Positions 2,820-62,660 of a stretch of DNA of 64,000 nt are shown here, piece after piece (positions within the stretch are counted from its first letter, which is position 1; every line of letters starts with the position of its first letter). Origin of the DNA: Paramacrobiotus metropolitanus (lineage: Eukaryota > Tardigrada > Eutardigrada > Parachela > Macrobiotidae); NCBI RefSeq assembly GCF_019649055.1, contig NW_026570263.1:1-64000 (forward strand), read 5' to 3'. The translations under genes were made by a program, and so were the position numbers. The notes below the pieces were generated by a model that worked only from the letters and a program-made list of their open reading frames with translations, did not search any database and was not told the DNA's origin.

Positions 2820-4745
2820 ATGGGTCATCTTCTCAAAGGTGCTGTCGTGGTTCTGCTGACCTTTTGCGTGCACGGTAGCCTTGGTTGTCCAGCTCAGAAA
2901 CCTCAGAAAGCTCAGAAAACTCAGGACGAGCTCGCTATGGAGAGAAGTAAGTGTGAATCGTTGTGCAGTTTGTTTTAGTAGGGGAACCTTAATGTGGCAC
3001 AATTTGCCTGCCGCTTCTGCGCAGGCGACATACGACTTTCATCCCTTTTATACTTGGTGTCAGAATATCCACTCTACTAGCCCCACTACCACTGGGTAGA
3101 GGGGCTCATAGTCGTGTAAGAACCTATTGCACACAAGAGAAACGCGGATGCACCATCATGACTGATGGCCCATCTCCCCGGCTTTTTCGTTTTCATAAGT
3201 AACACCAGTTGTTCAAAAATGTAAAATCAAAAATTAAGGACACTAACAGTAACCGAGTAAAGATGTACTATTACTGAATAAACACGACATTCGACCGTGG
3301 AGGAGGACCAAGAGTGACGTCAGCACGGCCAGCGCCACTGGCTGGCGCTGCAGTACGCTCGCGGTGGTTTCTACGATCCTCTCGTCCCCTTCCCAAACTG
3401 ATAACTGATGCAATCACGTCAAACTACACAACAACATTAAGAATTCTTTGTAGATTCTTAATTATTGTGATGCTAGTTATGTAAACAGCGGCAAAGTTTG
3501 TTTGTACCGAGAAAACTGTTGGAGCCTGGAGCACGCAGCAGCATCTGTTACCCTATCGCGTTTACCTTTTCTCTCATTTAACCCTTCTGTGAACTTATGG
3601 TTTAGTCAACCGGATTTTGAACGAAGCCAAAGAAAGCAACGGCAGCGGCACCATGCATTTGGGCGGTTATGGAATCGGTCCGTCATCCCCGAGTTTCCCG
3701 GTAGTGGAATGGTCGCCGGGGACGGAGCTCATTCGACCACCCGAAGGCGGCACACTCCTCATTCCTTGCAGCAACCCCAACAACACGCAGGTACGGCATG
3801 CATGAGGGATTAAGGGATAGCATCATAAGTGTGGTTTGGTGCACGCTTAAATTCCCAAGGCAACTAGAAAACGTCGTGCAACGGACAGTGTCCCGATCAA
3901 TTACTTCTCACTTATGGTAAAAGAACATGAAACAATTTTGGGATTAGATTATTAAATAACACGGTGGATCAGCAAGTCTTTTCTCGAGTGAAAAACCGGT
4001 TCGAGTTCGCGCAGTTAAGTATCAACTTGTCGTTTTGAATTATACTAAGTCTTGAATTTGTCGGCACTCTACACAGGTGTCCCGCATCGCAATTCCGCCG
4101 GCAATGGCATACAACGGAAGGCTGCTTATTATTAATGACGTCCCAAAATTCCTAGAACCGTCTACCGAAACGTTTCACTGCTGCAACTGCACACAGGAAG
4201 CCCGTCCCGAGGAAGAACTTCGGTGGGTGGTGGGGGTGTCCGAGTACGATGTGGGGACGGGTGCGTTCACCATCAAGATCGCGAACTTCTCCTACGCCTA
4301 CACCGGTCTGTACGAGTGCCTGCACTCCAACGGCAGCCAGCGGGTGGTGACCAAGCGCTACTGGGTCAGCCCCACCCACTTCCGCCACGACGTCTTCCAC
4401 CTGCCCATGACCAACGTCACCGTCCGCCACGGCGACCCAGCGGAGATGGTCTGCCCGGTGCGCTTCAATTTCCTGCCCGGAAAACTGAGACACCGTTTTC
4501 TGTGGCGCAGAGGAGACGATCTGCTTTGGGCCAAATCCATCCTGGACTTAGCCGACGCCGTCACAGCGCCTTACGACTTCAACGGGTTTTTTCAGTTCGC
4601 CAGTGACGAGCAGTGTCGCTGCAATTCCACCATGAAGCTGAGGAGCGTCACGTGGAAACACGCCGGTTGGTACGAATGCTGGTTCCGCATCAACGACCGT
4701 CTGGACGAGTGGATTATGCAGAAAGCCTACCTACACGTCATTTAA
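2820..4745 (+). CDS. Secreted protein with two immunoglobulin-like domains
   Basis: Three exons: 2820-2946, 3606-3790 and 4077-4745. The joins have standard GT/AG sites, phases 1 and 0, and close to 326 residues plus stop. The start was chosen because it opens a typical signal peptide (hydrophobic VVVLLTFCVHGSLGC); an in-frame ATG at 2538 would bury it. After a Lys/Gln-rich linker come two Ig-like folds. The first has the Cys of 'LLIPCS' and a 'YTGLYECLH' F-strand; the second has 'AEMVCPVRF', 'FLWRR' and 'HAGWYECWF'. Extra cysteines (HCCNC, CRC) and several N-glycosylation sites (NGS, NFS, NVT, NST) are visible. There is no transmembrane segment or GPI-type tail, so it is probably secreted. 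A role in adhesion, signalling or immunity is possible, but the partner is unknown and no orthologue is recognised. It converges on the E-Syt gene. Confidence 0.8.
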
Positions 4746-5253: not shown

Positions 5254-7370
5254 TCAGACGTAAAATCTCCTAGCTTGCGCTCCCACACTATCATCCCGCT
5301 TTTTCTCCTTGGCGGCGCTCTCTTTCCGGTAGCGCTCCGCCATTTCCCGCGACGTCACAATTCGCAAGACCACCTTCAAGCGGATCCTCGCCTCCGGTCC
5401 CGAGTGCATCAACAGCAAAAAGTTATCCACCACCAAATCCGCGGTCTCCACCACCGACAACAGCGGGATGGTCACCACGCCCAACCGGTGCCGGTCCTCG
5501 CAGTTAATCACCGTCAGCGTGAACTTTTGCAGCAGTGGATTGCTGACGTAGAAGATATGCTGCTGCTCCCACACCGGATCAGACGTGCGGTTGCACGTCC
5601 GGGATTTCCACGTCTGGGTGTCGAGATTGAGGATGGCCTTGGGCGAGGGCGGGACGTCCTTCCCGGGAGACCGCGGGAGGTTCTCCGCAGAGTCCAGGAC
5701 GACGATCAGGATCCCGGAGGACAGCGGGGACTCCGCGTGCGGCGCTAGGTACCGGCATTCGTGGAGGGCGGACGAAAGGTCATCGCGGTTGGCGGAGAGG
5801 TGGAGCCACTGCAGGCGGAGGTGCACCTGGGTCTTGGTGGCGCTCTCCAGATCGTACCAGCGGTCGACGGACTCCGCCTCCACCACCGGCGCGGAACTGA
5901 CCAGCACCGAGCCCAGGAGCTGCTCGTTCTCCTCGTTGATGAGCTGGAGGTGGAGGATCTGCCCTTCCGGCTCGGTGACGACGAAATCGAACATTTGGTC
6001 CCAGTTGGGGTTGACGCTCTTGCGGACCGGTTTGCTCTTGTCCTCCTTGGAACCCAACTGCAGTTTGACGTAGGGACTGCACTCGTGGGCGGTGATCGGG
6101 CCGGTGTCCGGCGCCAGGAGGTCCCGGGCGGCGATGAGGTGGACGCGGAGGACCCCGCGCGGCATCACAAACATCACGTCGTTGTAGACTTGACTACGCG
6201 CCCACAGGAACGTCTGCCGGTTCGGCAGGACCACCATGGACTTGAGCTGTTCGTGGACCAGCCGGTGAACGGTGCCCTTCATCCCCGGGAAGAGGAGGAG
6301 GTTGGTCATGTCGAAATCGACATCGGGCGGGTTCAGGAAGAAGAACTCGATGCCGCCTGCAAGAAAACAGAAGATTACGCAAAGGTCACTGAGGGAACGG
6401 GTGGGGTCCTAAAGGGCACATACAGCGATTAGGGTGCGCCACCTATTAAGGGCACCTGCCCCAGGATGGGTTTGAGGATGACGCGCAGGACGCCGCGCAG
6501 CTGGACGTTCTTGATGCCGGCCTTGATGCCGGAGACGCTGCAGGCGAACTCGGCGTTGCCGTTGTAGTACATCTCGCAGTCGAACATGATCTCCTTGCGG
6601 TCCAGTGCGTCGCGGTACATTTGATGCCGACGATGCGCAGCGGGATGGTGCCCATGGTTAGCGTCTCGAACTTGAAGTTATAGGCATGCTCGGTCGCATT
6701 GATGACAAATCTATAAAAAATCTTAATTAATAATAACAAATTATACACGTGCCAAAAATTTTTACATGGTCAAAAGTAAATTATTCGAAAAACTGAAATT
6801 ATCGGTGTTTGGAAAAAATTAACGGGTGATGAGTAGAGGGTATAAATCAGCCGAAAAATTTTTCGTAAGTGTACAAAAACTGAATAGGTAAATCCTGATT
6901 ACAAATGTACCGAAACCTTCATTATAAATTAAATAAATTCTTTATCTCAATAATAAGTATATAAAAAAAAATTTGATTTATCGAAAGGTCATCAGTTAAA
7001 TTCTTATAAGTAATTGTAGGACAAACCGCTCGAAACGCGTGGAACAGAACTGGCTCAGAAGGTCGCTGCAGGGCAGCCACATGCGGGCGATGGCCGTGTT
7101 GATCCATTCGACGCGCTCAAAATCCGGGAAGGTGATCCAACGCGGCAGGGCACCAGCGGCCGTCTCAATAATCCGACGCTGCTCATCCGGGGAGAACTCT
7201 TCCAGCCGCGGCAAAGTCCGTGGTCGAGATGGGCGTCCGCGGCCCGCGATAAACTTGACGAGGAGCACCAGCAACCGCGCAGTCAAATAATAAATGGGGT
7301 GTCGGTCGCGCGTCAGGAAATACACGGCAGCATCGTAGGCGAAGTCAAGCAGAACGGCCAAAAAGGGCAT
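5254..7370 (-). CDS. Extended synaptotagmin-like protein (SMP plus two C2 domains), one apparent frameshift
   Basis: Three exons on the minus strand: 7370-7027, 6710-6443 and 6356-5254 (about 571 residues). The N-terminus has hydrophobic stretches (LAVLLDFAYDAAVYFL and YYLTARLLVLLVKFIAG) that fit an ER membrane hairpin. The SMP lipid-transfer domain starts near WITFPDFERVEWIN and continues through FVINATEHAYNFKF, TMGTIPLRIVGIK, MYYNGNAEF and LRGVLRVILKPILGQVPLIGG. C2A starts at RGVLRVHLIAARDLL and C2B at SGILIVVLDSAENLP; the protein then ends, with no third C2 domain. E-Syts tether ER to plasma membrane and move lipid. Near 6620 the frame breaks after GIK and resumes one base later, with exon length one base short of phase closure, so a base is missing by mutation or sequencing error. 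Several usual acidic calcium-binding positions in C2A look replaced. Confidence 0.85.
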
Positions 7371-27514: not shown

Positions 27515-30500
27515 ATGAATGACATCATGCCTAACACTCGAGGGGTACCGGTAGCGAACACTCTTCCTCACTGCAGAAGAACATCAGTGGCATTCCATCT
27601 CAAATTGTATGTAGTACTGTCTGTTCTTGCAACGCCGAAAGTGTTATGCCAGTTAGCGATACCCCTCCCTCTTCCATTGGGCCGGTACGGATTTCTTACG
27701 CAAATCAGCGCCCCATCGCCTGCTGCTCCCGCCACAGTCGTTGCCAACAGTCCAGGGGATAATCCCGCCCTCTCCAGGAAACTGGCCGACAACGGCTCCC
27801 CCTCTGATGTGACCTTTGAGACCCACTGCGCCGGGATGACCATTAACGCCGCCCTCCGGTGTCCTTGCGCCGGTGTGGGTCAGCGTTGTGCGGACCCGGC
27901 ATCCGTTTGTAGTGTCGACCGGAAGTGCATCTGCGACTCTGCTCTAGGCTACCTAGACGCCACGGGACGGAAATGCGTCCGTTACACTACCATACCGACG
28001 GGTATGTTTTCTTAACTAAACGTATAAAGCATCTACCACTTCCCAGTGCAAAAAGAATACGTAGTTGCTGTGGGTTCGATTCCCTCAAGCGGCAGATTTT
28101 TTCCGATGTTCTATGCGAGCTTAGCCCAGCCCTTGCACAATGACAAATTCACTCCTCCTAAGATTCAAGATAATTATGAACGTAGACGAGGAAACGTACT
28201 ATTTTGTAATTTATGTCGATACTTTACAATAATTTAGATCGATAGCTGGGTATGCAACAGTCATGCCAGGTGCATGTTGAACGTAAATGGTGTGGCGTGG
28301 CGCGCCGTAGTATAGGGGTTGGCGTAACCCGTGAGTTTGCATTTGTCGATGGATGCGACGCATTTGCTTGTTGATGCGATAGAAATTACGGGACAAGTTT
28401 GTGCATGTAATTGCAGTAGTCGATTTCCAGTTGCTCCGACAACATGCCCAGTCTGTCCGACTTCCGGTCCAGTCTGTCCGACTTCTACAACAATCAGCAG
28501 TACGTGTCCGACTACGGTCACGTGCCAGCCGTGTCAAACATGCCCCACAACTACGGCTACCACTTGCCCAACCTCCACAACAACGGCAGCCACAAGTAAG
28601 CTTTAAAGAAATTCAAGTAGGTGTTGATATGACAACATAAAGGGCGAAAATACTGCAATGAACGCAGATACTTTGAACTCACCGTTACAAAATTTTACGT
28701 ATATGTAGTCGTATACCGCCGCTTGTCACATGGCCACTTGTCACACTGTCAAGTAAGACAATCTGGCTGCGACAGTGTCACCGTACCGGTCCGTACGAAA
28801 CTAGCAGCTATCCACGGCAAAATTCAGCCACAGTGCACGTTATTATTATTATTATTATTATTACGGCACAAGAGCAGACAACCCCGAAGGGACTTCAAGT
28901 CTGGTCGAACAAAAACAATTTTCCGCTAACAAAAACGTTTAGGAGAGTTTAACAGATCTGAGTAGAAATTTGAAAGAAGGTACAGAACTGGCTTCGAGAA
29001 TTTTAGGATTAACAGCAAGAAGTTTATCAAGAAGACACTTTAGCCGCATTTCCATAGTCCACCCTCCGATAACTTTCTTTGCCCGCGTAACATCGATCCG
29101 GGCCGGCTTCCGCAAATTGTAGCGCGAGGTGTTATCTTTTACTTGGATCATGTCCAGGAGGTAAGCCGGAAGCGGGAACCGATCTTCGTTCCAGAACTTG
29201 AACAACCACACCGCATCGCTCTGCCGCCATCGGTCGAATATGTGAGGAATACCCAACTTCTGATACAGTTCCGGAGTAACCGGCATCTTGTAATCAGTGA
29301 TGGTTTTCAGAGCTTTACGTTGTAGTCGGGCTAGCTTGTCGCGCTCAGTCGAAGACGCTGCAGACCATACCGGCGACTGGTGTGCGATATGGCAGCCGAA
29401 GCAGGCGTGATAAAGACCTTTGCGCTGTGACATGCTGAGCCCTTGTTGTGCCCGTTTAATCATGGCAATGCCAAAATTCCCTTTCCGCTGTACCTTTCTG
29501 AACTGCTCATTCCACTTGAGGTGATTATCGATTTCGACACCAAGATATCGTACACATTTCCCTATGCCAATTACCGACCCATGAGGATGTCAACTGCACA
29601 GCGCGGCGTTGGCTCGTTATTCGTTAACGTAATGGTCACTAGTGTAACACATAGATACATGACCCAGTATGCGGTAGTCGTACCACGGCACCGCAACACA
29701 CACGCAGTTGGTAGAGGGGGAAGACCAATCTGGACTCCGTGGGTTGTATACACGAACTACCTCCTACTAGGTACAAGCGGATTGCCGTGCCTAACGAAAA
29801 TTACCGAAACCCAAGCACGTAAAGTTAGAAGACGCATCAGTTACCGGTCGTGCGTCATCAGACGCACGTACGTTGTGGCGGTTGTGCATATTTAACGTTA
29901 ATACATTATACAGGGATACATAAACAGATTTGAAACTTGCATGTACAGTATCTCTCAAGTGATGCAAACTGGAAGCAGTACAATCCGCTTGACAAAATTT
30001 GTTGGCTGCTCGAACAATACTGGCTACTGATTGTTGCAGCGACCACAACTACCCCGACCACAACGACAACGACCGCTACCCCGGCGCAGGATACACGCTG
30101 CGCCACTACAGGACGAGGCTACAATGCCGGTACAGGAGCGGCCACGGCCACGGGTCAGTAAAGAACCAGCTGTATATTGCAGAATCTAACCCATATTTTC
30201 ACCAAACGGTCGTCTGGTGGTATTGCGGATCACGACGTGCCAACACCGACATGGATCAGCGACGTTGTGTAACAGTTTTAACTAGCGTTGCAACGATTAC
30301 ACGTTAAAAACTGCTACTGAAAAAACTGAAATGCATCTAAGTATTGCAGCGTCGTGCGGAGGCTGCATATTTCCGACGGCTACCACTCCACAAACCATCA
30401 TGTTTACGCTTAATTCACTCGAAACCACCGACTGTCTCTTCAGTATTGTTGGTCCGCCGGGGAGCAGTTTAACGGTGAGAAGGATATTTTACATTTGCCG

Positions 30501-30930
30501 ATACGTTGCTTGTTTCCTGGTACCTCCATTAGTATTGTTATTCGGCTTGCAATGTTACAGGTGACCAGCAACGGTTTCAGCTCACCAGTGCGTACATGAC
30601 AATGTTACAGACATGGGGGTTTCGTGCAAACGCAACCACCCGGCTTGAACTGGTATCCAAGAATACATGTGGTCCTTTCGTAATTTAGGCCTGCACTGTA
30701 GGCTACTTGATCATGAATGGGGTTCTTTACTGTTCGCCCTCCAATCCGCCGTTCCCGGCCTCTCTGCCCATTGCAGCCAGCATCACCGTAAGGATTTATG
30801 CATGAACGAAATCTTTCGCATCGTTCTGTTTGCGAACGTATTTATTGCCTTGTAGACGGTTTATTATCATCGTTCGCCGACACTCACTGCGCCTGGAACT
30901 CTGACATTTTCGGTTACCCCGGTCGGATGA
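27515..30930 (+). CDS. Secreted EB-like / Cys-Pro-Thr-rich / CUB protein, copy A
   Basis: Seven exons: 27515-28001, 28431-28595, 30040-30153, 30350-30474, 30561-30587, 30689-30787 and 30856-30930. All phases close to 363 residues plus stop. The N-terminus carries a hydrophobic LYVVLSVLATPKVLC segment read as a signal peptide. Residues about 80-160 form an 8-cysteine EB-like module (ALRCPCAGVGQRC, VCSVDRKCICDSALG). Exon 2 is a Cys-Pro-Thr-rich spacer, exon 3 is Thr-rich ending in RCATTGRGYN, and exons 4-7 build a CUB-like fold (CGGCIFP, CLFSIVGPPGSSL, NGVLYCSPSNPPFPAS, TLTFSV). Exon 5 is 27 nt and encodes VTSNGFSSP. It is a tandem paralogue of the gene at 33174-39647. Likely extracellular and heavily O-glycosylated; ligand and role unknown. 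Intron 2 holds a LINE remnant. The start could also be the ATG at 27527. Confidence 0.8.
28199..28402. repeat. Dispersed repeat, copy 1 (intron 1 of CUB gene A)
   Basis: This roughly 200-bp segment is related, in the same orientation, to 55088-55255 upstream of the second receptor. Shared parts are TTTAGATCGATA, 'GTGGCGTGGCGCG', a 'GTAACCCGTGA'-like block and ATGCGATAGAAATTACG. A shorter stretch near 38935-39020 ('ACTGGCGTAACCCACAAACTTTG') may be a third, more diverged copy. The class of element is unknown. Confidence 0.6.
28840..28862. repeat. (ATT)n microsatellite
   Basis: About seven ATT units in a row in intron 2 of CUB gene A. Confidence 0.9.
28939..29580 (-). mobile_element. Fragment of a second LINE type, 3' end of its reverse-transcriptase ORF
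   Basis: The minus-strand translation reads RYLGVEIDNHLKWNEQF, then LYHACFGCHIAHQSPVW, LQRKALKTITDYKMP and SRYNLRKP. This is the order seen after the catalytic part of APE-type LINEs (CR1/Jockey/I-like). The frame is open for 174 codons and continues upstream to about 29580. The polymerase core and N-terminus are missing. It sits antisense in intron 2 of CUB gene A and is unrelated to the KRPDG-type LINE elsewhere in the window. Confidence 0.75.
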
Positions 30931-32727
30931 TCGTCGATGTCATTTGCTCCACGCTATCTGTAATGTCGTACTGAATGACCTTTATATTTGTTTTGTTGTA
31001 TTTCTGCCCTAGCAACAGGGATTTGTGGTACTTATATTATCTCACTATTTTTATGTCATTCCACATCCGGGCTTGTTACTGTTCATGTCTTATTAAAACA
31101 CACGTACTTTAAGACGTGACACTACCCCAAAAATTCACCATTCAAATTTGTTAAAATTAATTTAGCAGTCACTTTTCACATTATTTTCAGACTGGAAAAA
31201 GCCAATTTTTTCACTTAATAATTAATTAAATACTTCTTTATTTCAAACCAACATAATACGGGTTTTAACTTTTGAATAGAAAATATTAAATTGCATTAAC
31301 AACAGCTCATTAAATATTAGCTTTTTTTGCGCCTAATTAATTTGATAATTAATGCCTTTTTGCGCTTATACAGTATAATCAAAAGCTACTTATGCATTAT
31401 GATGTTAAATAAGAAAATCTTGACCACGCCCATGGGGATGTACGAGTGCTTTAATGCACCGAATAGCGTTGCAAATAGCTGGATTGAGAAAACCGCTTAT
31501 TTTACACATCGCGCGTTCCTTTTGACGAGCCGAAATTCTTTATCAACCACAATGCCAGCGGATTGGACAATCCTTTTGCGACTGGACAATTTTTAGCTAA
31601 AATATTTATTGCGCTTATTACTATGGTTGTTATTTGAAATTCAGGATTGTTCTAATTTCTTTTTAAAAAAAATCAATCACTGTAAGCCTACTGCAACATT
31701 TGATGTTTTTTTAGTATGCACTTTTCATTGTTAAAGTGCTCATTTTTAATCCTTGGCCTGGATAGATTCGCCAGAGACGGCGAATTTTAAAGAGGAGGAT
31801 TGTGACGGAGTCACGTCATGCGTCATACCGTCATGGTCAGTCAGCGGTCGATTACATCATATGACATTATCCTTACGTCACTTCCTGTCATACCGCCGTC
31901 ATCATGCACGGTCACCACGGAAGCTCCACCCACTCCTAGCCGGCCATCCTCATACATAAGGAGACCTTCCGACTGCCAGCCAGTCAGTCCGTTCACCAGC
32001 AGCAGCCTAGCTGCTTAGTTATACAGTAGTTGTAGTGGGCAAGCGTTTACGCAATAAAGGTCATGGTCACACAGGTGTTGCCTAGTTGTTCACCATAGGT
32101 ACACGTAGGTAGAGGTCATCGCTGATCTTCTCACATAGGGCTCATAGGGTGCACTACGGGAGGACTCGGTCTTGCGACAGTACTCAGCATGCCCAATGCT
32201 GCTGCTGTATTGCCTCTCACTACTGCTAATTACTGTCTGATAAGCGCCGTTTATGGAGTCTCCCCGGTAGTTTGGCGAATCGTCCGGCCGATGAAACGAA
32301 TCACTTCAGCATTCCTTAGCGAATTATGAACGAATCATAAACAAGCTGAAACGATTCATTCCCGAGCGTCTCGACTGTCAGTGAATACAATAGATATACT
32401 TTTGATCTTACATTATCGATGTTATTACTTGAAATTGCACTTCTTGCTTGCCCGGCAAAACTCTTGCGGCGAAACACGGCTTTTTTTGAATGTTAACGCG
32501 TGTACGACGCTCTCTGTTGGTTGTTATATTATGTACGAGGGTTCGTAATAATCTTGCACAGTCGGAACTCGCTAGTCCCGGCCATTGTACCGGAAATTTG
32601 ACAATAACATACTCGTACAGCATGTGCAGACTACAGAGTATTCCGTGATCACTGAGCAGGTTGCTTTATAAAACTGTGGTTAGTACATATTTAAAAAAAT
32701 ATTACTGTGTGATATATATCTACGCCA
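30931..32727. other. Intergenic between the two CUB genes
   Basis: AT-rich in its first half. No gene, RNA or ordered repeat was recognised before the duplication at 32728. Confidence 0.45.
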
Positions 32728-33070
32728 CAATGCGCATCGGAAAACCTGGCAATGACCTGCTGACAACTGGCTTAACATACATTAATACCGGCCAATTAAT
32801 GCTCGAAGCAGAATCAGCGAATCTAGAAATGCTAAAAACATGCAGCGAGCGGCGCAGTGAAAAATATCGAACAATTGAGCAAAAAAAACATTGCTCTCTA
32901 ATCTCTTTAGGCCGCAATACACATCGGAAAAACTGCCTATGACCTGCTGACAGCTGGCGTAAAATTAATACCGGCGTATCAATGCCCGAAGCAGATCAGC
33001 GGATCTAAAAATGCTAGAAACATTGCACATGCAGGGAGCAGCGCATCTAAAAATATCGAACAATTGTGCA
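32728..33070. repeat. Direct duplication of about 185 bp
   Basis: 32728-32890 and 32914-33070 are diverged direct copies. Both carry the series 'CATCGGAAAA', 'ATGACCTGCTGACA.CTGGC', 'TTAATACCGG', 'AATGC.CGAAGCAGA', 'AAATATCGAACAATTG'. It ends about 100 bases before the start codon of CUB gene B, so it lies in that gene's promoter or 5' UTR. Confidence 0.75.
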
Positions 33071-33173
33071 AGTTTCAGACTCGCTTGTCTAGCAAATTCT
33101 CTCACACGGACACCGTACATGCTTCATTTTTCACCTTATTTTATTAACGAAAACCGGAACGCAGCTTTACAGG

Positions 33174-36100
33174 ATGCATTTGCGCAGGCAGAAATCTCTG
33201 TTGCCATACACCTTAAATCTGTATTTTATCCTACAAATTTTCTTAGGTTTTGTATTAATACATAAGATGTCTTGCCAGACTCTGGATCTTCCCCTAGGAC
33301 GGTTTATTTGGCTTAATCAAGCGACCATCCCGTCTCCAGTTTCCACCCCAACCAGTGCTCCTGCAAGCCAGGTAGAGAACCCCGCCCTGACCAGGAAACT
33401 GGTCGACAACGGCAGCCCCTCCGACGTGGCGTTCGAGGCGGCGTGTGCCGGAATGACCAGCAAGGCAGCCCTGCGTTGCCCGTGCAGCGGCGTTGGCCAA
33501 CGCTGTGCCGACCCGGTTTCGGTCTGCAGTGCCACCAAGAAATGCATTTGCGACAGTGCCCTCGGCTTTTCCGATTCTACTGGAACCAAGTGTGTCCGTT
33601 ACACGACTTGTAAGTATACTGACTGTATACATAAAGTCCATTTCACGACTGTAATCTCATTCGCGTTTCGTATCATAAAGGAATGTCGTTTGGAGTGAAA
33701 GGAGCTATTTTTAGTTCGTCTCTACAGTATTATACTCGTAATTATTGATTTACTGGCCCTCCCTTTAATTTAGAGTGAGAATATTGTACAGATAGTCCGT
33801 TTGGCTGCTAAATTTGCTCTTATGACACAACTGCACTGAAAACTAAAAAATCTGTAGGAATTCACCTTAACTTCACGTGCATCACAGTGGCTTGATGCAT
33901 GCCGGTTTAATCAGCAAGAGAGTAACGACAAGTGGTATCTGGTAAAAGAAGTTATTCACGTATTCGTATACGGAAAACGGACAGTTTTGTGCAGCAGTGA
34001 GCAGCTCACTGTGAGATAGGAAATCATGTGTGAAGTTCCAGTGGGAAATCGGAAGTTGATCGAACCCACCGAACATGTGCTAATGGTAGAAATGCGCAAA
34101 CCCTGCACAATCCTTGTCACCCAGCGGCTTCCAAATAGTTTTCAAGTCAGAATAGCCTATTTCGTAAAGTACATTTTCCGGCTTCCCTTGAAATTCAAAT
34201 ATGATTTCTTTCTCCCGGCTAGTCGAAAATGCACTCCGCCAGTCGGCCAGATTATCGAAGTCGAATTCCAGGTTATCGAGATAGTTTATTTTGATAAGTC
34301 ACAACGCACTTTGACTTTTTTGATAAACCTTCATGCTTCCCCACCTTACAAAAAATTAAAAAATCTTTATTGTCAAAATTGTAATATTTGACAACATGAT
34401 AATTCAGATGTTGTCCGGCAGAGTCGTTCTAGGTCACCTACGAATAATTCTCTTGTGGTTGGTTGCCATTTTCGACCGTCATTAGAGTGATTAGACCGCG
34501 TGGTGTTTATGCACTTCCACCATTGGCCACTGTTGAGCAAGTTCGATCGGCTTCCAGCTCCACAAGTGCTTCGCCGACTCGGTAGTACAGTAACCGATTG
34601 CTTGCAGTAGCTCCAGTGACATATCCTCCTTGTCCATCAGTTACCTGTCCAGCTTGCACATGCCCCGCCACAATTGGTCCCACGACTGCAAGCACAGCCT
34701 GCCCGACGATCACATGTCCGACCGCCACAACAACAGCCTGTCCGACGTTGTCTACCACACCCACCACGACGAGTAAGACATCGAACGGCTTCCACAATTA
34801 ATGATATGTATTTTGGTTGTTTTTTAATGCTTATTTTTTTCAACTTTTAAGTAGGACAGGAGCGCTTGCGGTTATTCGAAATTAAGTACTGTACGTAGCA
34901 CCGTAGTACCTTTGGGTACTGTAGTGTTGCTTCGCATGAAGCTTTCTGTATGAAACCGGCTGTAATTTTTCAATAATTAATTCTGCTTTCTAACGCAATG
35001 ACTCCTGACATAGGATTGTATTTTCAGAAAAGTTGAGTTTTGCCGCATTCAGTTACACCTAAAAAAAAACCTCTGATGTGTCGTTATAGCGACTACTACG
35101 ACCCCTACTACGACGACGACAGCTGCAACAGTTCAGGATCAAAGATGCGAAACTAATGGAATATACCAAAACGGATTTATTTCTCCGCAAGAGCTAGCTG
35201 GAATGGGTAAGTGTTTTACATACCCCTGTCTCCTTACTGTTCACTTCTGTAGTACGTAGTGCGCATCTTCGCCTCAGTTTTTAGTAACTTACACAAAAAC
35301 TTGTAAAAACTAATCATACCGTGGATGTGTGTCGACGGAAAAAAGACCGGCAACACCCATTTGTCGATCCGACCGTCATTCGACTTGATTTCGTCGACCA
35401 TCACTACACCGAGCAGGTCGCCCCGGCAGGAAGTCAAGCAAGCGTTTTGATAGGCCGTCTTATCTGTAGTTGTCTTAGGTTTCTTAGATTTCTAAGTTTC
35501 TTAGGATTCTAAGGATTTTTTAGTTTTCGTGATTTTCTTAGCCGTCGCCCTTGTAAGGTCGACATTATGCGGTCAACGTTGTGCGGTCAACCATGGGACG
35601 GTCGGCTTTGCGTTGGCCGATATGATGCGGGTGAGGCGCCGCATTGGCCGCAATAAAGTAACCGTCTACAGGCTTCTGACAATTCGGGCAGTTGTGCGGC
35701 TCGCAAATCTTGACGGCGACGCTAAGCTAGCCTTGCGGAGATTTTCAGTGTGTCGTTGTCGAGAATGTTACCAATGTGAACAGAATCGTTCAACAGATGG
35801 TAACGCGCTGAGCTAGATACGAGCTTCTGATCTTGATTGAACCAGGAGACGCGCAATACTAGATGTCGCCCCGGAAGACTTCCCACAAGAAAGACGGAGG
35901 CACACTGCATAAGGGAAAATCACATCCTTTTTGTGAATTGCGGAACGCCGTTACGGCCCTACGGGCAGTTGAGTTTGGCGGGCATTAATTTTGTCTTCCA
36001 CAAGTCCAAAGCTCAAACCACAGTATATATACGGCCGCCAGTTTTAACTAGCAAGCACACTAGTGTAGGGCGGAGTAAATCGAAGCCAGAATGGCTGGAA

Positions 36101-39100
36101 GTGTCAGTTAACCCGATGTCGCCTGTGCTAACCGGGAGACATACTGACCGCCAGCTGGGATACTAGTACAGGAAAGGGTAATGGGTGTCGTATCATGTGT
36201 GCGAAACTGTCGCATTATCGCATGCGTCTGGGGCTAAAAGCAGAAAGCCGGAGCGGAGAAAAGTGTGTCCGGAAGCGTGTCAGAATTTCCAGGGTGTAAC
36301 AACATGACATTGTGTTTGGCATTGCGGAATGCATAGTTCAACAAAACCGTCTGCCTGCCACAACACCATTTTAAGACGCGTATGGTTGTCAGGTTACATG
36401 CGTGTACAGTGTATTGATATTTCCGAATCATTTCGACTACACGCGTGGGACCCGCGCTGAAATTCGGATTAACAGGAAAATTCATCGAACTGTGCATTAT
36501 AGGCCGAAGCGCAACTGTTATTAGGGTTGAAAATTCCTGTTTTTTTATGTTTCTTTACGTTTCCTTACGTTTTTTAGGTTTTTCAAATGTTTTTATTTTA
36601 CGTTTTCTTATGCTTGGTAAACATAAAAATACACTAGGGAAGTGCACCGCTTTTGGCTAGCACTATTAGACCGAAGCGAAGCCGGAAACTGAACTTTGTA
36701 CAAAAATATTTACCCTAGGTTATCGTTATGTTGATTAGGCATTTATTTCGTAATAAAAGTCAGGAAAGGGCTATTCCCACCACCTTGACACCATGTTTGA
36801 CTAACATCACCACCTTTCACCCCGTTTTGGCTATTCGCTCCACCTTTTTTAATATTTTTCACACCACCTTTAGCTATTCTCATCACCTTGCGGCTGTACT
36901 GCATTCGGCAATTGCCATCTGTTTTCGCTCCATGTTTTCACGCATGAAAAGCCAGCATGAATAAGCATGAATACATAAGAAAGCAGCGGAAAAAATAAGA
37001 TTAAAGCATGAGAATGAAACATAAGAAACATAAAAAAGCATCAGAAAATATAAAAAAACGTTAAAAAAATAAATGACCCTGCATCGCCCCGTTCACATCA
37101 AGATCCCGCGACACGGCGGCATTTTCAGATTACATAATATTGAGTTAACTGGTAAGATTAGAACTGAACGCAAGGGAACGAATGCAGCGGAATAAAATAT
37201 GTTCAGTATCACTATAAATGTTCATTCCAGCTTGTGGAGGATGCATTTTTCCGGATTCGACCGGAAAGCCTTTATCATATCCAACCAATCCACAGTACGG
37301 CGCCAATTGCCTTTGGAGCATCGTTGTGCCTCCTGGAAAAAACATCCGGGTTAGAAATAATACAAAAACCTACAGATACTTTGATTCTTTCGCCCTGATT
37401 TCAAGGTTCACGAGTGCTAAAAACCAAGTATTTCTGTTTAGGTAGTACCGGGCACCTTTAATTTAATGGTAAGTGTCTAAATTTAACCGTCTGCGCTGCT
37501 GCAACGTCAAACCCCAGCCGGATCAACGACAGCAAGTATAGGGATTCCTTGCCCAAGCCATTGACAGCCCCTTTTATGATGTATGGTCCCCCCTTTTATT
37601 ATAATGGTCCATGCTGTGGATCGTAGTGTGGTGCTAACGTGTCGAGCGTGCTTACGACAGCAGGTCAGCTGGACCGCAAAGTATGGCAGATGCTCGTAGA
37701 CAGTCACCAAACAGATTGGTCGGCGCGACAAAAACTTGCGCTGAGTATTCAACGAAGTGCAGTCTGTACAGACGGTTGGTGTTGCGATGGTGACTTGCGT
37801 ACGGACGCATCCTTCGTCCCGTACCTATGCTTGGAGCTCTGACATCATCTGGACATCAGAACGAGTTCCTGTGAGTACCGCACTGGCTCCATTGACCTAT
37901 TGGAACAACAGAATTCAATAGGGTCGGGTGCTTTCTTTGTCTAGTGACTCCGGACAGGTGGTTAAAGCATCCGTACGATAGAAATCTGTCCAGTGTGTTA
38001 ACGGGTCCAGTTTTGAGGAGACGATCGTGACGAGGGTTGAGAAACTTTATGTTAAAAAGCACTTGCCGTGTAATACGGTGACCTCGCTTCCTCCATGACC
38101 TTTATAGCCTTCGTTCTTCCTTCCCGGTTAATGCCTGGTGATATTTAGCGTAACGGATAGGTAAGTGTATACGTGTATATATTCCTAGTGTATTTCTTGT
38201 TTTTGCAGCAGGGATTGCTGGTTCCGTACTCGTAGTTAGGTTTAGGCCATCAGATTTCCATTAACTGTATTCCTTATCAGTTGAGATAGAGAGTGCTCTT
38301 ATAGATCGTGTAGTGATCGGTACGTGGATGTAGCAACATATTCTATTGTGCAAGGTTTCTCGTTCACGACAACTGGGAACACGACTAAAATCGTTATTCA
38401 TGATCTTATAATGCGTATCCAGTTTTCCCAGGAGCGCCTTCGCATTTCCTCGGACTACCGGTGGTCTAAAGCCCTGTCTCATGAAGGCCGCAGGTCAGTG
38501 TTCCCAAGTGACTTCACGAATCTTCCGGAAAACGAAACGGATCAGCCCAGCAAAGGCCGTTCCGAAATTCCCAAGCGCTTCAACTGCCAGAGGGTGGAGC
38601 TGGTATCCCAAATACTCGATAAAAGCCTACTTTCGGCGTTTCCTAACTTTGCCAACTGAGCTACACCTCTGGATTTCATTGAGCCGGCGTATATGTGAGA
38701 CTCGGCCACAGTATCCCAACATGTTTCATCCAGACTACTGCCCTGCCATCGCGCAGAGGAATTAATATCATACCATCCGGTTTTCCTGTCGTTTTCTAAT
38801 AGTCAATGAGAAACTCTCATTTTTCAATAACAAACTGTTCCGCAGTAGCTGGCCCTTACTGCACTGGCATTCTGTTAATCAATATCCACACGGCAGTTAT
38901 GGTAAATCTTAAGTAATTTTGGCATGCACCAGCCGCGGCAAATGGATGCAACGCTTTAACAGTGTTGCGTGAAGCGTCGAGGTGTAAAGACTGGCGTAAC
39001 CCACAAACTTTGAATTTACATATCTTCAATTTGCAATCGGCTTATACTGACTACTAATGCATTAGTATTCCATATAAGACGTACATATGTACGTGCTTTA

Positions 39101-39647
39101 TAAAGTGATTTTCTTGTATGGAAAATATTTCTTTACGTGCAATGTCAGATCATAAGAACGAATTCGAAGTCCGCCCCTGGATCTATTTATGGGGCGCTTG
39201 CACGAATGGAATAGAAAGATCATGAAGCCACAATGTTTCAGGCGGGATTTGATGCCGTCATTCTCAACGGAGTGTTGTACAACGTCGGCAGCCCCTTTCC
39301 TGCCGGAGGTGTCAATGTAATGGCTAGTGTCACGGTAAGAAACGTAGCAGCCAATGTATATGGAAGTTACTGCTGGCCTAAACGCTGCTTAGACTGCATT
39401 CGATGAATCTGGAGCAGAAGCTCTGCGGTAGGAGATACTAAGTGTGCAGTGTGCTGCATGTTTTGATATAGGTAACACGTTTAATACTTGTGACTGCAGA
39501 TTCGTAGGCTTCAGATGTTTATAACATTTCATACTATTTTCGGTATTTCCAATGTTATTTATTAACACTTCGGTTTTGCAGGCAATATATTTCCGTGCCA
39601 ATATAGCCACCTCATCCACTGCCTCCTTCACGGTTTATTCTTTCTAG
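33174..39647 (+). CDS. Secreted EB-like / Cys-Pro-Thr-rich / CUB protein, copy B
   Basis: Seven exons: 33174-33609, 34608-34772, 35090-35206, 37231-37349, 37442-37468, 39242-39334 and 39582-39647. All phases match copy A and close to 340 residues plus stop. The signal peptide core is LYFILQIFLGFVL. The EB-like module (ALRCPCSGVGQRC, VCSATKKCICDSALG) is the best conserved part. Exon 2 is 165 nt in both copies and encodes a Cys-Pro-Thr spacer. Exon 3 is Thr-rich and ends RCETNGIYQNGF. The CUB-like part reads CGGCIFP, SYPTNPQYGANCLWSIVVPPG, NGVLYNVGSPFPAG and ASFTVYSF. Exon 5 is again a 27-nt microexon (VVPGTFNLM). The CUB is shorter than usual and the middle cysteine pair looks incomplete. Introns 4 and 6 are long (about 1.9 and 1.8 kb). 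Function unknown; probably extracellular. Confidence 0.82.
33610..34607. other. Intron 1 of CUB gene B
   Basis: A 121-codon plus-strand frame at 34026-34391 lies here. It has no signal peptide or domain I recognise and no sign of splicing to the gene, so it was not called. Confidence 0.45.
35207..37230. other. Intron 4 of CUB gene B
   Basis: Two kilobases without a supported gene. Low-complexity CTTAGGTTTCTTAGATTTCT-type sequence at 35467-35540 and TTTCTTTACGTTT-type runs at 36536-36615 recur, partly inverted, near 37010-37070. Confidence 0.45.
38470..38765 (-). mobile_element. Possible LINE remnant in intron 6 of CUB gene B
   Basis: The minus-strand translation contains 'EYLGYQLHPLAVEALGNFGTAFAGLIRF', broken into pieces by frame changes; EYLGYQL and FGTAFAGL resemble the post-catalytic part of LINE reverse transcriptases (compare RYLGVEI and FGIAM in the fragment at 28939-29580). 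The match is short and decayed. Confidence 0.35.
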
Positions 39648-41854: not shown

Positions 41855-43123
41855 TTAGGCTCTGGGCAGTCCTAAGCCTCCCGATTTGACCGGTAGAGAA
41901 GCTTGCACGTAAGCGCAGTCGTCCATCTTGACATTCGTAATCTCTTCAGCTTTTGACTTTATAGCGTGGTCGAACTCCTTGAGCTTCTCAGGATATTTAT
42001 TGCAAGGGGCCGCTCTTAGTGTATACATAAGCCGCGGTAGCGACAGGCTATTTCTCAGAAGAAATAACGCCTGCTGTGCCGGCAAGACGCTCAGTGAGTC
42101 GGTCAGCTTTCTGATTTGATCAATCTTGCCGTCCAAGCAGCGGCCGATTGACCAGTCCGTAAGAGGAACTCCAAGCAGTTCCAGCGTCTCTGGGGTAATC
42201 CTTTGAATTCCAGGTACGACTGCGGCTAATCGGTCGTAGATGGCTTGTTGCTCCGCTTTAGATCCACCATAAACGTACAACTCACACTTAGCGAAGTTAA
42301 GGTCCAAACCAAGTTTTGGCGCGTCATTACAAACTCCTATAAAATCCTCCAAAACCACTTCTGGATTTCCACCTGCAGTCCCGTCGTCCAGATACCAGGC
42401 GTTGAGATCGCACTGCACCCTCTTTGACAGCTTGATGGAGGCGAGGCAAAACAGCACCGGTCCAAGAGGATCACCCTGCTGTACTCCGTGGACAGACGGC
42501 ATCGTCGTATTGCCGCAAAATAATGTAGAAGAATTTCTGTAGCACTGAGAAATAAAGTAAAAATACTGCGGTAATTTATCAGCCGCTTCTTCCAAAACGA
42601 TATCGCGGCGAATAGTGTTGAACGCATTTCGAAAATCAAGCTTCAACAAAACGGTGGGGCTGGCTGGGTGAGCTCGTAAAAACTTTCGGGTTGCATGCAC
42701 CGCTGCTTCTGCTCCGCCCGGCGTTCCATAGCCCAACTGAACAGGGCGAAGTATACCGCCCATTTCTGACTGCACGAGTCTTCTAATAAGCTTTCCGCAA
42801 AGACGTCTGATGGTGCACCCAACCGCTATAGGCCGTATTCCCCCCGTTTTCTTTTTTAATGGGATCAGCGTGGCTTTAAATAGAACCGAGCGAATGCTGT
42901 CGGGGATGGGTTTGACGAAGATGTGATTCACTACCTTGGTAAGCGCTGTCAGCATTAGCTCACCACATTCTCCAGACACTTTAATAAGTTCCTTCAAGTG
43001 TTGCGCCCGTAGGCCATCGGGTCCGGCTGAAGAGCCAGCAGGGAAAGCTTTAACCGCAGCATGGACTTCTTCTGATGAGAATTCTAAGGGGGCACCCACA
43101 GTAGGAGCAGAAGGGAAGTTCAA
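41855..43123 (-). pseudogene. LINE reverse transcriptase domain
   Basis: 422 codons with the main RT motifs: SSAGPDGLRAQHL (about 31-43), IRPIAVG, LKLDFRNAFNTI with the first catalytic Asp at about 163, GVQQGDPLGPVLF at 213-225, and YLDDG at 244-248 for the paired Asp residues. The third position of the YxDD box is Leu where most LINEs have Ala. A TAA ends the frame just before the sequence continues in frame (EIAMPAYLSS), so this stop is premature. Catalytic residues survive, but the element as a whole cannot make a full polyprotein. Confidence 0.85.
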
Positions 43124-43800
43124 ATCAGCAGGGTGATCAGCGTGTTTTTCTTTGAGAGCAGCAGGACTTCATTCGTTCCCGCTGCAACAGCATCGTCTGA
43201 TGTTTAAACTTTAACGGCGCCACTTATATCCCCATCTTGTAACTTTGCATTTACGGCTTTCCTCGGTGCTTCGTCGCTGGACCTTTTCTTTTTCGTTTTC
43301 TTCACCTTAGTGGTCACGCTGGTGCCTTGTAAATTGGCTTTAACGGACGCAGCCACGACCAGACTTTGACGGGGGAGTGTGTAGATTGTCGAGAGCGAAC
43401 AAAAGTAATTTACTCCATGCGTCTTCGTCATTCTTCTCAGCACATCCATCCATTATTAAATTTTTGCGTAAAGCTTCAGCACAGGCGCGTCTAGCTCCGG
43501 TGGGCACATGACGAAGAACGGCATGGAGTTTTCTTGACTCAATTATGCGGTTTGGAGGCTGGTGCTAGCTGCGGGTTGTGCGGGGTTAGAATCTGCTGAA
43601 GGTCCCTGACGGAGAGCTTTAACACGGGCCTTCTTGCATACCAATGAATCGCGGTGCATAGATAGTCCATGGGCAGTTTTGACAACTGTTCCACATAGGT
43701 CGCATTTGAACTTTATGTTGATAGTAGCTCCCTAAAAACAGCTGCGAAAGCCAGACAGGGAACCAACAGAACCGAGAGAGAACGCATAAGCAGTCCAGTT

Positions 43801-48016: not shown

Positions 48017-50555
48017 ATGGCAACGATCTTGAACAGCAGCGCGCCCAGCGTCAATCTGACGGAGTGCGGTTGGCCGGTAATTCCTCTGCGGCCACCAGTC
48101 GCGAGCGCCACGATATTCGCCGACTGGATGTATTCTCCTACCCGTTCCTGCTGGCGTTGGCCACCCTGGGCAACACGCTCAACATTATCATCCTCAAGCG
48201 CGAGAAACCCTGCACCTCTAAGAACGTCTATTTGATCGCCATCGCCGCGTCTGACATGATATTCAAGTAAGGTAGCACACCGTCGTTAATCTGGTACCGA
48301 TGTTCGTATCGCTCGTTCCATGTTATTTTACAGCGATTTTTTTTATGTTTCTTACACGATACAACAAAATTCGAGCACAAAATGTATCGACAAATTTCGG
48401 TTTTCCATGTTTTAAGTTGTACCATACATATACCTTTTTTATGTTTCTTCTGTTTTCTGATGTTTTTTCCTGTTCTTATATACGTATCTAGCTCATATTA
48501 GTTTTCGTTTCGATTCGTTTTTCGTTTTATATGATAGTGGTTTATTTGTAGGTGGAGCGCGCTTATGTTCTACATAATTAATTTCGACGGAGAGGTGCAC
48601 GGGATGCCGCGACCGCACCTGTACGCTGCCGTCCGGCCAATCCAAGGTTTCGGCGCTTTTTGTCAAGAGACAGCTGCCGTGTTTTCCTCCTGGTGAGTTT
48701 CACCGCTCACAGTGCCATTTACGCAAAAATCACAAAGCATGTTCACTTACGTATTGTTCAATGGACGGTTGCGAAGACACGCATAATGATGCCGTTATAT
48801 TTATAGGGTTATCGTGGCGTTCAGCGTGGAGCGCTTCATTGCCATCAAGTACCCACTGCGGCATATGATCAAGGATAATCTCCGTCAGTCACGTGTCAAC
48901 ATTGGCGCAATTCTCTTCAGTGCCGTCCTACTGGTAATCCATCGCTTAGTGGACTACTACCACTATTATGTCCGCTACGGCGGGACGAACGCGCCGCACC
49001 GGCGTACGACGATTCTCTTGAGCTGGAACCTCATCTATACCTGGCTAATTGTACGTATTTAGTACTATGTACACATTTTCATGTTGTGATGCTAATCGCT
49101 AGAAGACGCTGTCTAGGCATTCATAAAAAGTTTCTAATGTAATAACGTGTTCAGAAAAAAGCGTCTTATGTTGACGGAGCGTTCATACGAACTGTTGAAC
49201 CGATTTCATCGCTTGACCAAACGTAGGTTTAGCAAGTCGTTCGTCTATAAAATCTATTGTATACTGGTATCGCGGTCCGGCGGAAAAAAATATCTTCAAG
49301 ACTTCAACAGTAAGCTTAGGCTGAAATTTATGTTATTAATTGCGTCTATTAATACGGAGGCTTCGCCTTCATAATCTGATTGGAACTTTGAATCCTGCAC
49401 TGCGTAACACTGACCAAATACGTCCTCTAAGCAGGTTACCTTTTAAAGTACGTTATTTTTTAACTCAAGGACAGAGAGTTTGGTTGTTTTTCTAATGCTT
49501 AAAAATTTTTTTAACCGTAAAGTACTGTGGTGCCAAGTGAATTCCGCACCATTTCGTAAAGCGTGATACGCTAGAGCTGTATATGGGGTTCAGCGTTCGC
49601 TGAACGCGCTGAACAGCGTCTGGCTGCCAGTAGTAAAGGGCCGAGCGTTGCTTACTCTTGAAAAATCGTTCCTGCTTCAGAACGGCTCTCTGTCAAGACT
49701 TACAGACTTGAATTCAATCAAAAAAACATTTTTACATTAATTGATGTTTACAAAACATGTGAACTGTATCACGTATTGTCTAGCTGCTGGTTCGAAACGC
49801 TTTGTCGTACCCACACGTACTACTGAATGTGAATTTTTTCAAATCGCTTGTTCAGGCAGTTCATAAGCTTGTAGACAGTGAACCCGCTGAACGCTAGAGC
49901 CGCCCATACAGCGCTTGTCTCGCATGCTGTACGAAAAAGTGCGGAATTCACTTGGCACCACAGTAGTGTACCCGAGTTTGCGTTTTATGGTACTTGATCG
50001 AATTAGCTTTATAGACTGGAATTGCCTTGACGACCTTGTATCGTCATTCTGGTTCTCAACGCGGCACTCCTCCGCGAAATTCTGCGGACGAAAAGCTTCA
50101 GCATGACGCACGCGTACGCCACGCAGACGTCCTCTGGCAGCTGCGACAGCTCCCTCAGTTCCGCCACCAACCACAGTAATCGCTCCGCCGCCCGTCCGGA
50201 GAAGAACGCGCTGGTCTTGTTGGCCGGCGTGGTGCTGCTCTTCCTCGTCACACAGCTGCCCGTCATCGTCAACAACGTTCTCAGCCTTCTGGACAAATCC
50301 TGCATCCGCGAGTACCCGAAGACCTGGCAGCGCTTCGCCACACCGGTCTGCAATTTCCTCCTCAACTTGAACTTCTCCTGTAATTTCCTGGTATACTGTA
50401 GTGCTGATAAGAAGTTCCGCAATAACGTTTATCAGCTGTGTCGTGCAGCACCGCCGGCGAATTCCGGTGCGTCCAATCGCAGGGAGCAGTTTCGGTTGAA
50501 TAGCGGACATCGGGCTGATAAGGCTGCCGTGCCGCTGACTGCAAAGACGCCGTGA
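48017..50555 (+). pseudogene. Class A (rhodopsin-like) GPCR 1, frame-disrupted in two places
   Basis: Four exons at the same positions as receptor 2: 48017-48266, 48552-48692 (141 nt), 48807-49050 (244 nt) and 50015-50555. Readable parts: NLTECGWPV, TM1 with LATLGNTLNIIIL, KNVYLIAIAASD, FCQE, VERFIAIKYPL at the end of TM3, SFSMTHAYAT, TM6 LLAGVVLLFLVTQLP and TM7 ending NFLVYC. Exon 1 lacks one base between GWPVI and TSRERH, and its length is one short of the phase its paralogue needs. Exon 4 breaks at about 50038 between IALTTL and IVILVLN, where the frame used downstream has a TGA at 50028. Either this copy is becoming a pseudogene or the sequence has errors. The ligand is unknown; the closest feel is peptide (FMRFamide-type) receptors. 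Confidence 0.75.
49523..49965. mobile_element. MITE-like inverted repeat in intron 3 of receptor 1
   Basis: 49523-49558 and 49930-49965 are inverted copies over 36 bases with two mismatches (TACTGTGGTGCCAAGTGAAT at the outer end). Weaker pairing continues inward for about 50 more bases. There is no open frame of note. It accounts for much of the enlarged third intron of receptor 1. Confidence 0.65.
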
Positions 50556-61300: not shown

Positions 61301-62660
61301 TACTATTAGACGTAGTTGTAGGTTACAAGCTTTACGATAAAGCTGTGACATAATAGACACACTGTTGTTTTCAAAAGACAGGATGTACTAATTTTACTTA
61401 GGAAGCACGTGTTGCAGGTGGAGTGCCATCATCTCCTACATCTCGAACTACGACGGCGAAGTACACGGTCGACCCACGCCGGCCATAAGAAAAGCCATCG
61501 ATCGCATTAGAGGCATCGGTCCATTTTGCCAGGAGTGGGCGGTCATGTCGTCTTCTTGGTAAGCATGATATCTTCAGCATGATCAACTTAAACAAAGGAG
61601 GACGGAGTCCGGCACCGTAATTTTAAAACAAATCGACTGCAAAAACTAGAGCGTATTTTAAAATTTTAGTAAAACAGGGCTTGATTCAAGGCTTTTTGCC
61701 ATTTTTATTCGCCAGATCAGAGCAACGAATATTTAAAACATAAACAGGAGGGAGGGAAGGAATATGCATGTTTGTTTGTAGGATAATTATCGCCTTCACC
61801 ACCGAGCGGTTTGTGGCTATCAAGTACCCCCTTCAGCACAAGATCAAAGACAATCTACGCCACTGTCGTGTCAACGTGTACGGCACCTTTCTGGTAGCGC
61901 TGCTGCTGGCTAGTCACCGCTTAGTGGATTACTACTGGTTCCACATCAACAGTGACGGAATGGGTCGGCGGCCTCCGCGACCCTATCATCTGTACAGATG
62001 GAACATGGCCCACGAGTGGGCAATTGTACGTAGCATGCTGCAGTGCGTGCACAACCAGTTTTAAACGAATCCTGGACCACGCTGACCGTGTCGTTGCAGG
62101 TTGTGCTGCAGCTACTCACCCTGGCCGTGATGATCATCCTCAACGCGATGCTCTTACGCGAAATCATCCGCACCCGCCAATTTCACCGTCCAGAGCTGGC
62201 GCACGCCCGCGCCTCCTACTGCGTCTCGGACGGCAGCGAAATCTCCGCCCAACTGAGCAGCGCCAGTTCTACCACGCCCCCCAAGTACACGGTCCGCCCG
62301 GAGCGCAACGCCCTGATTCTGCTGGGCGGCGTGGTGCTGCTGTTCCTCTGCACGCAAGTCCCGGCGGTCTACTTCGTCGTCCTCAACCTGCTGGAGAAAT
62401 CATGCATCCGGGAGATGCCAGTGTACATTAAGGCGGTGGCGGTGCCCCTCCGCAACTTCTTCATGAACGTCAACTTCTCCGGCAACTTCCTGGTGTACTG
62501 CAGCGTGGACCGGCGCTTCCGCAGTAGTGTGTACCATGTGTGTCATGCGCCGCCGGAACGGACCGCGGCGGTGCGCCGGGAGAACTTCCGCATGAATGAT
62601 GTGCACAAGTTGTCGGAGAAGTCCACGGCGCCGTTGGTGGCCACGTTATCCCAAGAATGA
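55329..62660 (+). CDS. Class A (rhodopsin-like) GPCR 2, peptide-receptor type
   Basis: Four exons: 55329-55564, 61418-61558, 61782-62025 and 62100-62660. Phases 2, 2 and 0 close to 393 residues plus stop. A short N-terminus with an NSS glycosylation site leads to TM1 (LAIATLGNLVNIIVL), then KNVYLIAIALTDL (TM2), FCQE (the TM3 cysteine) and TTERFVAIKYPL, an ERF version of the DRY box. TM5 has LTLAVMIILNAMLL, TM6 LLGGVVLLFLCTQVP, and TM7 ends NFLVYC in place of NPxxY. The second extracellular loop (about YYWFHINSDG to HEWAI) has no cysteine, so the usual loop disulfide cannot form there. The tail holds RRFR and Ser/Thr residues. It resembles FMRFamide-type receptors but the ligand is not inferable. 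It is a tandem paralogue of the receptor at 48017, and its first intron is 5.9 kb of repeats. Confidence 0.88.
55565..57085. other. First part of receptor 2 intron 1
   Basis: A minus-strand frame of 119 codons at 56254-56613 has no recognised domain. Nothing else is supported. Confidence 0.45.
57080..57135. repeat. Isolated unit of the 90-bp minisatellite
   Basis: CTTGGCGAACACTGCGAACG followed by CTGCGAATATGGGAAAA matches the start of the minisatellite unit, 1.6 kb before the main array and with no tandem neighbours. Confidence 0.75.
57972..58381. mobile_element. Foldback element, TTAAGGG family, complete copy
   Basis: A 410-bp element with arms of about 154 bp (57972-58125 and 58228-58381) that are inverted copies with scattered differences. 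Both ends read TTAAGGGATTTGGCCCGG going inward. The TTAA at each end may be part of the repeat or a TTAA target duplication as in piggyBac-type elements. Arms also share TTGCATTGCTTTATG and TTTGTATACGTAGGCGT and end at TTTGCGCGCGCAA. There is no coding sequence, so it is non-autonomous. Related copies lie at 24670-25380 and 45260-45559. Confidence 0.85.
58690..60735. repeat. 90-bp minisatellite array, about 22 copies
   Basis: Tandem units of about 89-90 bp with the core CTTGGCGAACGCTGCGAAGG, CTGCGAATATGGGAAAATCA, AACCCGGCAT, GTCGTTGGGTATG and ACCTTTAAAGT. Some units lack the GAAGGCTGC part. From about 59890 to 60620 larger blocks recur, marked by 'CTACTGACCTATAAGGTGCCCT', giving a higher-order pattern. 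Diverged relatives continue to about 60980. It fills a third of receptor 2 intron 1. Because the unit is a multiple of three, minus-strand frames stay open (for example 58732-59085, repeating KHTQRHA and DFPIFA), but they are interrupted and have no start or splice support. Confidence 0.95.
60736..61417. other. End of receptor 2 intron 1
   Basis: Starts with decayed minisatellite-like units (TTGGCAAAATGTGGGAATAC, GGCGATTTGTGCGAATGCTG). A 17-base sequence at about 61218-61234 is the inverse of 56910-56926. No gene is supported. Confidence 0.5.

Follow-up and report, generated by a model that had tools for sequence, protein, structure and literature searches.

Integumentary mucin C.1 is known from Xenopus, with a trefoil (P) domain. 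In CUB domains the cysteines C3 and C4 are paired by a disulphide bond, and EB modules show a CxC pattern near their end. With respect to the protein family considered here, which is built on a stalk of mucin type, literature searches of titles and the beginnings of abstracts returned no recognised description. In the portions of the individual papers that were covered, an 'integumentary mucin A.1-like' entry from Artemia stands in a table (PMC8406910), CRISP-family proteins are reported from the Milnesium proteome in text that does not contain 'mucin' (PMC3459984), and the word occurs only within a reference title in PMC12941274 and is absent from PMC11191345.

We have analysed a window of 64,000 nucleotides (the whole stretch of DNA under study) from the tardigrade Paramacrobiotus metropolitanus, in which two genes, A and B, stand in tandem. 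Our main reading, to which we give a probability of about one half, is that they belong to a family of secreted, mucin-like proteins that has expanded in Paramacrobiotus and combines a constant module with a stalk and a variable head, and that they serve as glycoproteins of mucus or the extracellular matrix.

Structure of the two tandem genes

The + strand carries gene A (27515-30930), followed head to tail by gene B (33174 or 33267 to 39647), and each gene consists of seven exons whose spliced chain runs to a single terminal stop (Table 1). The introns are GT-AG in 12/12 cases and have the phases 1,1,1,0,0,0 in both genes alike; furthermore, A and B agree in the length of exon 2 (165 nt) and of exon 5 (27 nt). 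The original prediction of two head-to-tail seven-exon genes with identical phases and chains that close in frame was borne out by exact splicing, and gene B equals an NCBI protein, P0001. The predicted order of the parts also holds for the signal peptide, the Cys-Pro/Thr spacer, the Thr tract and the split CUB-like domain, but not for the 'EB-like' label that the cysteine module had been given. Sequence and hydropathy place a putative signal peptide and a Thr/Pro-rich tract in both genes, and the spliced chains have many cysteines in the Cys-Pro spacer.

Table 1. Coordinates in the window of the exons and cysteine modules of genes A and B
Feature	Position	Strand	Basis
Gene A exon 1: signal peptide (..VLCQ), PLG[RK][FY]xxL motif, PALSRKLADNGSPSDV linker, 8-Cys module	27515..28001	+	sequence, spliced chain
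Gene A 8-Cys module, C1 to C8, 50 residues	27827..27976	+	module alignment
Gene A exon 2: Cys-Pro/Thr spacer	28431..28595	+	spliced chain
Gene A exon 3: Thr tract and QDTRC	30040..30153	+	spliced chain
Gene A exon 4: first part of CUB-like domain (CGGC..C..PPG)	30350..30474	+	spliced chain, paralogue reading
Gene A exon 5, 27 nt	30561..30587	+	donor placed by frame and homology
Gene A exon 6: CUB C3/C4 part (ACTVGYLIMNGVLYC)	30689..30787	+	spliced chain, exon-6 pattern
Gene A exon 7 and stop	30856..30930	+	spliced chain
Gene B exon 1	33174..33609	+	NCBI model start 33267; with the in-frame ATG upstream (33174) a signal peptide results, like that of most paralogues
Gene B 8-Cys module, C1 to C8, 50 residues	33444..33593	+	module alignment
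Gene B exon 2: Cys-Pro/Thr spacer	34608..34772	+	equals P0001
Gene B exon 3: Thr tract	35090..35206	+	equals P0001
Gene B exon 4: first part of CUB-like domain	37231..37349	+	equals P0001
Gene B exon 5, 27 nt	37442..37468	+	equals P0001
Gene B exon 6: CUB part without C3 and without C4	39242..39334	+	spliced chain, equals P0001
Gene B exon 7 and stop	39582..39647	+	equals P0001

P0001 ('integumentary mucin C.1-like', P. metropolitanus, 309 residues) is identical to gene B when this is spliced from 33267, and it begins with MSCQ. The in-frame ATG at 33174 adds the hydrophobic stretch FILQIFLGFVLI ahead of CQ, and CQ is the end of the signal peptide in most paralogues, as read from their exon 1. 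The NCBI start is therefore probably too short, such that the P0001 model probably lacks a signal peptide that gene B would have. An extra exon of gene B near 38350, proposed from a similar-looking reading frame, is absent from P0001, and the matching extra exon of gene A is absent from the exact seven-exon chain. For gene A, no NCBI protein was among the results of the protein searches, such that its exons 5 and 6, with a weak donor at exon 5 (ACCA/GTGCGT), are placed by frame and homology only.

Intron 2 of gene A contains a 216-aa antisense open frame (28942-29589, - strand) that had no match in Pfam and that we take, by eye, to resemble a retroelement fragment. A retroelement with a reverse transcriptase open frame (RVT_1, 41858-43165, - strand, Pfam E 2.5e-16) follows gene B at a distance of about 2 kb. 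Elsewhere, the window holds a C2-domain protein with two C2 stretches (5257-6405, - strand, E 7e-27) and, under the cut-off, an open frame with weak immunoglobulin-domain matches (4056-4739, + strand, E 1e-4) and two weak matches to rhodopsin-type 7TM receptors (50031-50552 and 62034-62657, both + strand, E 7.6e-5 and 5.7e-5).

A family across the genome

The pair belongs to a genome-wide family, which was not part of the original prediction. Compared with the 169.8 Mb genome of P. metropolitanus, the module exon of gene A gave 42 matches at E <= 10, and 35 rows, corresponding to 34 places, at E <= 3.6e-7. The 18 best loci besides the pair were read over approximately 10 kb each. Their first CUB exon is unbroken in 16/18, as it is in A and B, partial in L041 and frame-broken in L052. 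A pattern search found the Cys-Pro/Thr exon in 17/20 loci, the misses being the three C9 genes, with C9:707 (in L046) outside that scan. L049 carries a frameshift and has lost one module cysteine, L052 carries a stop and has lost several, and exon 1 of L044 and of L045 has no signal peptide. Each of the contigs C32, C13, C9, C53, C79, C73 and C37 harbors two to four copies, and in a tree of 23 modules A and B were not resolved as sisters. L044 and L045 (G000:C79:165804-167203) are inverted copies of the module exon with identity over 74 codons, a sequence arrangement that suggests recent inverted duplication or gene conversion.

The architecture, which had been called unfamiliar, thus recurs across this one genome, and its NCBI-listed members bear automatic names. 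Six of them (P0001-P0006) were among the results of the protein searches. The name of P0006 (G000:C65), 'transcription initiation factor TFIID subunit 12-like', is evidently a misnomer, and 'integumentary mucin C.1-like' probably goes back to the Thr tract; both mislead for members of this family. Relatives in the protein searches, two of which scored about 8,000 candidates each, came from P. metropolitanus only, at a limited sensitivity: a search with gene A over 29 candidates missed P0002, P0003 and P0005, and another missed P0002. A restriction of the family to this species is not proven by these searches.

A distant branch of the family is associated with a second kind of head. Six distant module places (C302:29128, C103:501811, C29:196670, C29:188940, C3:1286473 and C103:461139) are followed on their own strand, after 0.2-0.8 kb, by a CAP match; 0.004 such neighbours are expected by chance (37 places, 40 CAP matches). 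One of them is the place of L057 itself, and the others are 63-97% identical to the L057 module. In L057, the module, the Thr tract and the start of CAP share one reading frame; its CAP part scored 20.1 bits against a cut-off of 21.1, and in the genome scan, where one TGA was read through, it reached 37.7 bits. The CAP exon of L056 scored 38.4 bits. The other four links are given by coordinates, and at C103:501811 and C29:188940 the open frames of module and CAP are equal in length (255 aa at the former, 345 aa at the latter), which would fit a shared frame. Beside the similar places C29:149574, C144:127613 and C182:124157, the genome CAP scan gave no CAP match.

The cysteine module and the CUB-like head

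Behind the signal peptide stands a conserved PLG[KR][FY]xxL motif. It is followed by a variable stretch, by PALSRKxADNGSPADVAFE and by the eight-cysteine module, which in the window genes has the spacing C-x10-C-x-C-x6-C-x6-C-x5-C-x-C-x13-C. An AlphaFold2 model of P0001 gives block pLDDT values of 84-89 for residues 71-110, i.e., most of the module, and places two short helices before its cysteine part. The 24 modules of alignment A2 were chosen by a pattern requiring cysteines, such that their cysteine conservation is not independent evidence; L052, with its lost cysteines, fails this pattern and is outside the 24. The EB module (PF01683) was rejected as the identity of the module on sequence grounds, by profile scans both per module and genome-wide. 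Pfam EB was listed for 0/24 modules at E <= 10 (where HMMER filters drop most weak matches), and over the whole genome the EB model matched 11 places, three of them over the cut-off and none in the family. Hence, the 'EB-like' description is not supported. Spider toxin families were hit weakly by single modules (best E 0.029), which was taken as a chance effect of the cysteine pattern, and a DUF5874 match of the window gene models (E 0.16) is not significant. No family or solved sequence matched the module in Pfam, NCBIfam and the PDB sequences.

For the C-terminal 100 residues, structure prediction yields a CUB beta-sandwich fold, with the domain spread over exons 4-7. Relative to the Pfam CUB (PF00431) cut-off of 21.4 bits, the paralogue P0005 scores 24.8, gene B 13.2, and gene A has no match; the scans of A and B used approximate models with one extra exon each, the model of A also differing slightly in the Thr tract and at the joint of exons 3 and 4, and that of B being one Thr short. 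The approximate gene A model, taken alone, matched no Pfam family. The nematode domain CUB_2 (PF02408) was absent among the matches of the A and B models at E <= 10, and its genome scan, which matched nothing anywhere and left the controls silent too, is uninformative. C3 and C4 occur together in 12/14 cases, are both missing in 2/14 and never occur singly (0/14). Gene A has kept both, and gene B, like L047, has lost both. This count covers 12 loci found by pattern, including the apparent pseudogene L049, plus P0003 and P0005; for 7/20 loci (L041, L042, L044, L045, the C9:707 gene in L046, L051 and L052) the pattern found no exon 6, and since it demands C, N, S or P at C4, it would overlook a C4 replaced by any other residue.

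Between A and B, 39/50 residues are identical in the cysteine module (dN 0.17) and 37/98 in the CUB-like part (dN 0.65), and omega is unusable for this pair because synonymous sites are saturated or nearly so. Among 13 loci with both fragments, pn is lower in the module exon than in the first CUB exon in 78/78 pairs, which are not independent of each other (medians 0.28 vs 0.43). In the 25 pairs with the smallest synonymous divergence, some of which already approach saturation, omega was 0.06-0.41 in the module exon (24 pairs; L044-L045, being identical, has no value) and 0.10-0.58 in the first CUB exon (the 11 of these pairs for which both exons were available). CUB exceeds the module in 9/11, the exceptions being L047-L050 (0.10 vs 0.32) and L038-L039 (0.21 vs 0.22). 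These ranges argue for purifying selection on both parts, as a rule weaker on the head, and the pairwise synonymous and nonsynonymous counts give no sign of positive selection. The original proposal that the parts are under different selection is thus upheld by pn, but omega is not uniform in this respect. Given the purifying selection seen on CUB exons between close pairs, the 'variable head' may reflect only relaxed constraint.

Possible functions and relation to known domains

Judging from sequence, A and B most likely encode secreted, O-glycosylated mucin-like proteins with a stalk that can be cross-linked. The signal peptide would export the chain, and the conserved N-terminal unit of PLG[RK][FY]xxL motif, helical linker and eight-cysteine module, for which a fold is predicted, may act as a disulphide-bonded structural or docking module. 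By its composition, the CPxCP/Thr stalk would be an extended spacer, probably O-glycosylated and possibly with disulphide cross-links. The CUB domain of exons 4-7, whose fold is supported by prediction, could be a variable binding or adhesion head. Copies would retain the module while the head diverges, and CAP would replace CUB in the more distant branch. The likeliest role would be that of a mucus or extracellular-matrix glycoprotein with heads that bind ligands or microbes.

Alternatively, these might be structural glycoproteins of the cuticle, the buccal region or the eggshell, in which module and stalk cross-link an insoluble matrix and CUB, having no specific ligand, diverges by relaxed constraint. 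The cysteine-rich Cys-Pro spacer, the loss of the CUB cysteine pair from gene B and L047 and the higher pn of the CUB exon in all 78 pairs fit such a role. However, purifying selection acts on the CUB exons of close pairs (omega 0.10-0.58), and the CAP domain of the distant branch would be needless for a purely structural role; we regard this alternative as rather unlikely. An immune-type function, with CUB heads diversifying onto microbial surfaces while stalk and module anchor them in mucus, is in keeping with the many copies, with several contigs carrying more than one, and with a conserved module beside a more divergent head, but the pairwise counts show no sign of positive selection, and we hold this to be distinctly improbable.

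A different question is whether gene A is active, since it could be unexpressed, given that no NCBI protein was found for it. It might be a decaying or silent duplicate with recognisable exons from which no protein is made, and the weak exon-5 donor and the broken appearance of two other copies, L049 and L052, point in the same direction. Nevertheless, its reading frame is free of stops and frameshifts, and all eight module cysteines as well as C3 and C4 of the CUB part are retained. We regard a silent gene A as unlikely.

Our preferred reading of A and B as members of a secreted mucin-like family can be extended tentatively, at somewhat less than even odds. The eight-cysteine module with its PLG[KR][FY] leader would then be an undescribed domain of this tardigrade lineage, to which at least two different heads, CUB and CAP, were joined by shuffling through mucin-type Thr stalks; the result would be a repertoire of about 30 secreted receptor-like or matrix proteins. 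A large family that keeps one cysteine module and swaps the domain behind a mucin stalk could furnish markers for tardigrade secretory tissues and would exemplify domain shuffling in a phylum that is not among the usual models.

The family resembles integumentary mucin C.1 in its Thr-rich, Cys-Pro containing stalk of low complexity, but Pfam scans of the two window gene models and of P0002-P0004 found no trefoil domain. With EB, its module shares the character of a small, secreted, cysteine-rich unit with CxC near the end, but it has no EB profile match, and helices are predicted ahead of the cysteine part. It is similar to CUB (PF00431), as in Kremen, cubilin and the spermadhesins, in the predicted fold, the C-x-x-x-I..PPG core, the joint retention or loss of C3 and C4 and the Pfam match of P0005, whereas the extra cysteine (CGxC), the split over four exons, the scores of A and B under the Pfam cut-off and the lack of C3/C4 in gene B set the family apart. 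Finally, CAP/SCP (PF00188) is represented in the distant branch, where a CAP domain follows the module and the Thr tract; the window genes carry CUB in its place.
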